Assembly (NCBI GenBank): GCA_951813255.1
Contig: OX638353.1
Location: 310,001 to 374,000 of the forward strand
Direction of reading: 5' to 3'
DNA from: an uncultured Dehalococcoidia bacterium
GTDB taxonomy: Bacteria > Chloroflexota > Dehalococcoidia > Lucifugimonadales > JAAXIE01
Length of the DNA: 64,000 nucleotides
Under the pieces are notes generated by a model. It saw nothing but the letters and a program-made list of their open reading frames with translations, was not told the origin of the DNA and made no database searches. Made by a program: the position numbers and the translations under genes. Each line of letters starts with the position of its first letter. The stretch's first letter is position 1. Below, piece after piece: positions 33,402-54,180 of this stretch.

Positions 33402-33668
33402 AGGCCGTGCTAGGCGGGGAGCTAGCGGTGCCCTGAACTCGCAATCCGCTAAAGCGAGGTCGAATTCCCCCCCGAGGCTTGGCCGGTGCGCCTCTATCCC
33501 GAAAGTGTAGTATCGAAGGCTGGGTCCCACGCGGCGGAGACCTGTGAACCCCGCCAGGCCGGAAGGAGCAACGGTAAGCAGGTGCCTTCGGGTGCCGTGG
33601 GCTTGCCTGGCTGGAGCTACTCTCAAGGACATGTCCATGGGCCATTGTCGACGGGCGGTGCACGGTCT
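33402..33668 (+). ncRNA. ffs: Signal recognition particle RNA, large (Alu-containing) bacterial type
   Basis: About 267 nt. The 5' GCCGTGCTAGGCGGGGAG and the following GGTGCCCTG and CAATCCGCT segments match the Alu domain of the Bacillus-type scRNA. The universally conserved S-domain loop is present at GGCCGGAAGGAGCAACGGTA (about 33558-33577), opposite GTGCCGTGGGCTTGCCTGGC. The 3' end GGTGCACGGTC pairs with the 5' GCCGTGC. The RNA targets signal-peptide ribosomes to the membrane together with Ffh and FtsY, not seen in this window. It ends 17 bp before rsmA. Confidence 0.93.
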
Positions 33669-53727: not shown

Positions 53728-53956
53728 GGTGCGGTCTGCTCCTTTTCCTTTGGGGGCACCTGGGTGCCGGTGCTGTTCTGTGGCACCATAAATCATAACA
53801 TGGGCCCGCGATTGAAGACTTGTCAGATAGAGGCTGGCTATCCCTTGACAAATCTCACAGCTTGGGACTAGCATCCCATTGACCGCTGGTTGCGGGACTC
53901 TGGCACGAGGGTCTCCTAGCCTCTGCGGAGGCGGGAGGTAGAAGGAGGTGATCTAT

Positions 53957-54019
53957 ATGAAACATAATTTAGGTCAACGGGGCGATGGTAAACATCTGTC
54001 GAGGTGTGACAGCGACTAG
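53957..54019 (+). CDS. Possible 20-aa leader peptide
   Basis: A tiny frame (MKHNLGQRGDGKHLSRCDSD) begins at ATG 53957, five bases after AAGGAGGTGATC, a Shine-Dalgarno site complementary to the full anti-SD. Such a strong site before a 20-codon frame suggests translation matters. Its codons 8-13 fall in the 5' arm of the long helix described next, and its TAG lies in the GACTAG arm, so ribosome occupancy would alter the fold. It may be regulatory rather than functional as a peptide. Confidence 0.45.
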   Translation: MKHNLGQRGDGKHLSRCDSD

Positions 54020-54146
54020 CGTACCCAAGACAGCCGGCGGGAGCGTCTAGTCCGCCGGTCGGGCCCAGGCAAATGTTTACCATCGCCCCGGGCCCAGACG
54101 AGCCGATGACCCGGCCAGCCAAAAGCAGGTTTCGGCGAGGCGCAAC

Positions 54147-54180
54147 AAACCGCTTCTCTTAGGGAGAAGCGGTTTTTGTT
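54147..54180 (+). terminator. Strong rho-independent terminator
   Basis: Perfect 12-bp arms AAACCGCTTCTC (54147-54158) and its complement (54164-54175) with a five-base loop, followed by TTGTTTGTG. It terminates the structured transcript starting near 53940. Confidence 0.85.

Follow-up and report, generated by a model that had tools for sequence, protein, structure and literature searches.

A previously uncatalogued single-copy RNA of SAR202-type bacteria whose fold may report translation of its own short open reading frame

Layout of the locus

What role could be played by a long-range RNA helix one arm of which lies inside a short open reading frame (ORF), in a transcript that appears to end before any gene it might control? 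The question is raised by one locus in a 64,000-nucleotide stretch of DNA from an uncultured Dehalococcoidia bacterium (the window), where a new structured RNA had been proposed from the sequence. The perfect 18-bp helix of the original prediction is found at 53978-53995 with 54073-54090, the strong Shine-Dalgarno (SD), 20-codon frame and terminator lie where it placed them, and we agree that only minus-strand genes follow. A promoter and a 5′ hairpin at 53845-53896 had been missed. Together, 53840-54180 has the sequence layout of an autonomous RNA gene, with promoter, SD, ORF, long-range helix and terminator, and the idea of a stand-alone or dual-function small mRNA is supported. The promoter, SD and ORF below are read directly from the sequence; for the other elements the basis is given in the line.

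53845-53874, plus strand: sigma70-type promoter (TTGACA 53845-53850, 18-nt spacer, TAGCAT 53869-53874)
53883-53896, plus strand: 5′ hairpin CCGC..GCGG, close to where transcription is expected to begin; relatives have a similar hairpin
53940-53952, plus strand: extended SD, AGAAGGAGGTGAT
53957-54019, plus strand: short ORF of 20 codons, MKHNLGQRGDGKHLSRCDSD and stop (ATG 53957, TAG 54017-54019)
53978-53995, plus strand: P1 5′ arm, CGGGGCGATGGTAAACAT, within the ORF (repeat search, fold, relatives)
53998-54010, plus strand: P2 5′ strand, GTCGAGGTGTGAC, within the ORF (10 of 13 pairs in the window, 11-13 of 13 in relatives)
54058-54070, plus strand: P2 3′ strand and also S2 5′ strand, GTCGGGCCCAGGC, common to two competing helices (pairing, masked folds)
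54073-54090, plus strand: P1 3′ arm, ATGTTTACCATCGCCCCG (pairing and substitution test in relatives)
54110-54116, plus strand: likely but weak S2 3′ strand, CCCGGCC, pairing with GGUCGGG 54057-54063 (by inspection)
54147-54180, plus strand: intrinsic terminator, AAACCGCTTCTC-ttagg-GAGAAGCGGTTT then a T-run, arms 54147-54158 and 54164-54175 (sequence, repeats, fold)

The extended SD is complementary to the 3′ end of 16S rRNA. The repeat search extends the P1 match to 21 nt at 95%. The strand folds with -119.4 kcal/mol (z = -7.4), a stability reached by none of 200 dinucleotide shuffles, and the RNA is present once in its own genome.

Distribution of the RNA

Clear homologues were found with blastn in seven other genomes of the same order, and a covariance model built from eight sequences and run on 250 same-order genomes matched 54. 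One weak match, in G056, was dropped after its sequence was read, leaving 53 members with one copy per genome, antisense matches at the same place being set aside. These belong to four families (46 in f41, four in f14, two in f9, and the window's own genome in f1). The same model gave seven weak matches besides the own genome in a class sample of 393 genomes and none in a phylum sample of 400. The exact two-arm pattern, sought in about 85,000 genomes or species in a scan that may omit contigs of the own genome, occurred on 50 contigs, of which 48 are Chloroflexota, Dehalococcoidia or SAR202 metagenome-assembled genomes; the two proteobacterial contigs are taken as chance. Matches across the class to the pattern GGAGGTGA..ATG..TCGGGYC are for the most part chance as well. 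A spread across Chloroflexota as such, which had been anticipated, is not seen: judged by these searches, the close family is confined to part of one Dehalococcoidia order, and the class also contains diverged RNAs that are probably related.

Rfam gave nothing at threshold at the locus, in agreement with the earlier failure to place it in a known family, and the literature searched holds no description of the SAR202 RNA. Elsewhere in the window, 33405-33665 is a large bacterial SRP RNA (163.9 bits). With homologues in 53 of 250 same-order genomes and the P1 pairing kept in all 52 that could be measured, the proposal of a new structured RNA is borne out, and we regard it as nearly certain that this part of the window belongs to a conserved RNA family. 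It is a previously uncatalogued small RNA gene, conserved once per genome in marine and sponge-associated bacteria of the SAR202 type.

Conservation of the P1/P2 rod

All 52 measured members keep both arms of P1, with standard pairs only at 16 of 16 positions. Both conditions under which the original prediction would have failed, a lack of covariation and relatives with a single conserved arm, were examined, and neither refuted it. The 25 distinct helix sequences record 26 substitution events, no pair is broken by any of them, and 2000 tree-aware simulations produced no equal result. Strong conservation of the sequence, which in the SAR202 set goes beyond what pairing needs, keeps the per-pair tree-aware covariation modest: one P1 pair reaches E = 0.01. 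P2, of 13 bp with 10-13 paired, extends P1 into a longer rod, and in the same tree-aware test it did not beat the null (233/2000).

A predicted competing helix

The 3′ strand of P2 is also the 5′ side of a second helix, S2, whose partner strand lies downstream and resembles the P2 5′ strand. In 51 of 52 members S2 forms 6-10 consecutive pairs. An automatic search for the register of the relatives did not locate it in the window copy; a shifted 7-bp version is all that inspection reveals there, and folding with the ORF masked gives six S2 pairs. The possible pseudoknot of the original prediction corresponds to this competing helix in relatives; the window has it in a weak, rearranged form.

When nine representatives were folded with the ORF free, the rod formed in all nine with zero S2 pairs. 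Holding the ORF unpaired, which mimics ribosome cover, gave S2 a gain of 6-13 pairs in eight of the nine and none in L086. Masking the ORF forces the rod open, and the competing helix is therefore partly expected. In these models the fold appears to follow the state of the ORF, the P1/P2 rod being predicted for an unread frame and S2 for a covered one. The earlier suggestion that translation of the frame would disrupt the helix is supported, the P1 5′ arm lying within the ORF. As for a translation- or ligand-sensing switch, the translational half is consistent with the folding, and Rfam, the sole source searched for a ligand-binding aptamer, showed none.

Promoters, neighbouring genes and known systems

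Helices in this arrangement recall a cis-acting leader-peptide attenuator of a downstream gene, which would be the rpsP operon in f41 and birA elsewhere, the window copy being a relocated remnant. In f41 the RNA does lie upstream of rpsP, a KH-domain gene and rimM; P2 and S2 are arranged like an antiterminator and a terminator, with a U-tract after S2 in 41 of 44 rpsP-linked copies; at L045 and L032 the RNA stands 34 and 64 nt from rpsP with no promoter in the gap; and birA follows closely on several of the distant relatives. Against this, 41 of the 44 f41 rpsP genes examined have a promoter match of their own after the S2/U-tract (L045, L032 and L081 have none), and copies in f1, f9, f14 and f56 have neither rpsP nor birA directly downstream, yet the RNA and its pairing are kept. 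The own genome has rpsP at C1:2300250 and the RNA at C1:363943; in those f1, f9 and f14 genomes that were checked, rpsP lies away from the RNA, whose neighbours are unrelated genes and differ. Outside f41, S2 has no U-tract behind it. A separate terminator is visible there in the window copy, L088 and the f14 copies, and was not seen on inspection of L087. A relocated remnant should decay, yet P1 in the window is perfect.

The members also carry signals of their own, most of them including a terminator. A TTGAC/-10 pattern occurs within 120 nt upstream in 45 of 53, its frequency in control windows taken at those loci being 5%, and 49 of 53 have a hairpin like that of the window upstream of the SD. 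Given the separate rpsP promoters and the copies away from rpsP, serving as an rpsP leader is not the main role of the RNA, and we reject it as the general one; cis attenuation as the explanation of the family as a whole we consider unlikely.

Classical trp leaders are leader-peptide transcription attenuators. The SAR202 RNA resembles these and the ilvB leader of Corynebacterium in that an SD-led short ORF, probably translated, overlaps the 5′ side of a helix predicted to exclude a second one, which in most rpsP-linked copies precedes a U-tract. The ilvB upstream-ORF attenuator follows a similar helix logic (PMC10272879, PMC11109978). In contrast to such attenuators, the SAR202 RNA has no consistent downstream gene, obvious control-codon run or conserved peptide, and if our reading is right translation would favour S2 and non-translation the rod. 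The window copy differs further in that its terminator is a separate hairpin, its S2 is weak, and no same-strand gene lies downstream to regulate, the genes there being on the minus strand only.

The one S16 (rpsP) leader in the literature searched is that of Flavobacteria, described in a paper from whose text Chloroflexi are absent (PMC7247131). The f41 RNA shares its place upstream of rpsP but belongs to another phylum, where rpsP usually has its own promoter and other copies of the RNA lie away from rpsP; the window copy does not lie in an rpsP 5′ leader. SgrS and RNAIII are dual-function small RNAs. Like RNAs of that kind, the present one appears from its sequence to be autonomous and carries a short ORF; it differs in that the ORF overlaps the structural core and the peptide is unconserved.

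Other identities were rejected. A match to the L10 leader (RF00557) scored 22.1 bits against a gathering threshold of 44. It looks like chance, since elsewhere in the genome L022 (G000:C1:2342209-2342361, minus strand) is a better L10_leader candidate at 32.7 bits, still below the gathering threshold. What the window copy shares with the L10 leader is a terminator and a short run resembling UACC-AAGACAGC; relatives do not conserve this run, and rplJ is not downstream. A mir-30 match was set aside since any such perfect hairpin gives it. Kinship with tmRNA, prompted by TCTGGATTCGACG in L086, was dismissed: the RF00023 model has no match at the window locus, and the own genome carries a complete tmRNA elsewhere, which differs.

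The short ORF and its translation

Within the SD, GGAGGTGA is invariant in the first eight aligned members. The ATG stands 18-25 nt 5′ of P1 in 52 of 52 measured members, and the ORFs run for 10-23 codons with the stop always 5′ of the P2 3′ strand. An SD so nearly invariant and perfect, the single copy, and P1 sequence conservation in the SAR202 set exceeding the need for pairing would suit a trans-acting or ribosome-binding structured RNA that docks through its SD on the 16S 3′ end, with a functional rod and an incidental ORF. Docking needs neither a start, a frame length nor a stop, and all three are kept in 44 of 44 f41-type ORFs, each exactly 23 codons plus a stop (31 TAG, 13 TAA), with four TAA/TAG exchanges beside freely varying codons. 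We rate this explanation as somewhat less probable again than cis attenuation.

The ideal SD, the conserved start and stop and the constant length within f41 could equally mark a small protein gene, the product being a peptide of 10-23 residues and the rod merely a stabiliser of its mRNA. The residues speak against it: codons 2-7 of f41-type ORFs have undergone 32 nonsynonymous changes and 3 synonymous ones, so that N-terminal amino acids vary freely and the peptide is disfavoured as the functional product. The frame relative to P1 also differs among families, being different in f14, the f9 ORF stops after 11 codons, and the peptides of other families have no common sequence by eye. A small protein gene is accordingly improbable. 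From these sequence comparisons, it is the act and extent of translation that appear to be under selection, and not the peptide. That the locus is a functionless chance hairpin, repeat or mobile element can be put aside almost entirely: inverted repeats with terminators do arise by chance or in insertion elements, but the single copy in its own genome and one per relative genome, the conservation over four families and the lack of any exact two-arm match in IMG/VR contradict it.

Proposed mechanism

The reading that we prefer, with about even confidence, is an autonomous translated small RNA whose fold reports translation of its own short ORF. Judging from the sequence, a strong promoter would give a transcript of 240-300 nt. 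Ribosomes would load at the near-perfect SD and read 10-23 codons, as the conserved start and stop suggest. With the ORF unread, pairing and folding indicate that its codons would form the 5′ side of the long P1/P2 rod. Once the ORF is covered by ribosomes the rod would be blocked, and the freed strand GUCGGGCCCAG would pair downstream as S2, an outcome predicted in relatives and weak in the window. In the rpsP-linked branch S2 with its U-tract resembles a terminator, and so translation would favour termination there. For the window and other unlinked copies the RNA would itself be the conserved product, with an action in trans or at the ribosome.

Probable relatives in Dehalococcoidia

A wider set was assembled from the weak model matches and a search for AAGGAGGTGAT-N3-7-ATG. 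Seventeen RNAs were inspected in f42, f56, f62, f73, f89 and f103 (L220-L225, L227-L231, L212, L215, L216, L152, L185 and L218), with SDs near AAGGAGGTGAT. They have in common an extended SD, an ORF of 15-24 codons, a rod joining the ORF to the 3′ untranslated region and usually then a strong terminator-like hairpin, and they fold with z from -3.1 to -9.7. Helix sequences vary between families, and inside f89. The RNAs of f42, f62, f73, f89 and f103 lie mostly just upstream of birA; those of f56 do not. They are probable relatives of the SAR202 family, chiefly on grounds of architecture, which suggests a wider class of constant layout and changing helix sequence. More tentatively, this may be a class-wide, single-copy housekeeping RNA of Dehalococcoidia whose full-length SD and ORF-3′UTR rod sense the initiation or elongation of translation, and which acts at the ribosome or in trans.

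In L220-L225 and the f42, f73 and f89 copies a stretch within the ORF could pair with the SD and start codon of the same RNA, to which it is complementary; this suggests a second switch. Support for the pairing comes from the f56, f42, f73 and f89 copies, with p of about 0.00-0.05; the window (p = 0.77) and most SAR202 members give none, and the pairing is therefore not claimed there. Other short ORFs with extended SDs were also noted. Those at L234, L235, L241, L244 and L245 precede what seem, from signal-peptide-like N-termini, to be genes for secreted or surface-layer proteins, and probably form a different leader family; L180 and L181, at about 1500, have a strong promoter, an extended SD and a Trp-containing ORF, MTLHKMYGVWQVDW and stop, a possible leader peptide; and L238 and G427:C1:1694220, from two genomes of family f54, share the ten-codon ORF MSRTPFHRRT and stop.

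Implications

The bacteria concerned, SAR202 and the Dehalococcoidia related to it, are abundant, and most have yet to be cultivated. An RNA that stands alone and follows attenuator logic with no consistent downstream gene would, if true, be unusual. The combination of a conserved stop with a freely varying peptide makes it a clear, testable case for the act of translation serving as the signal.
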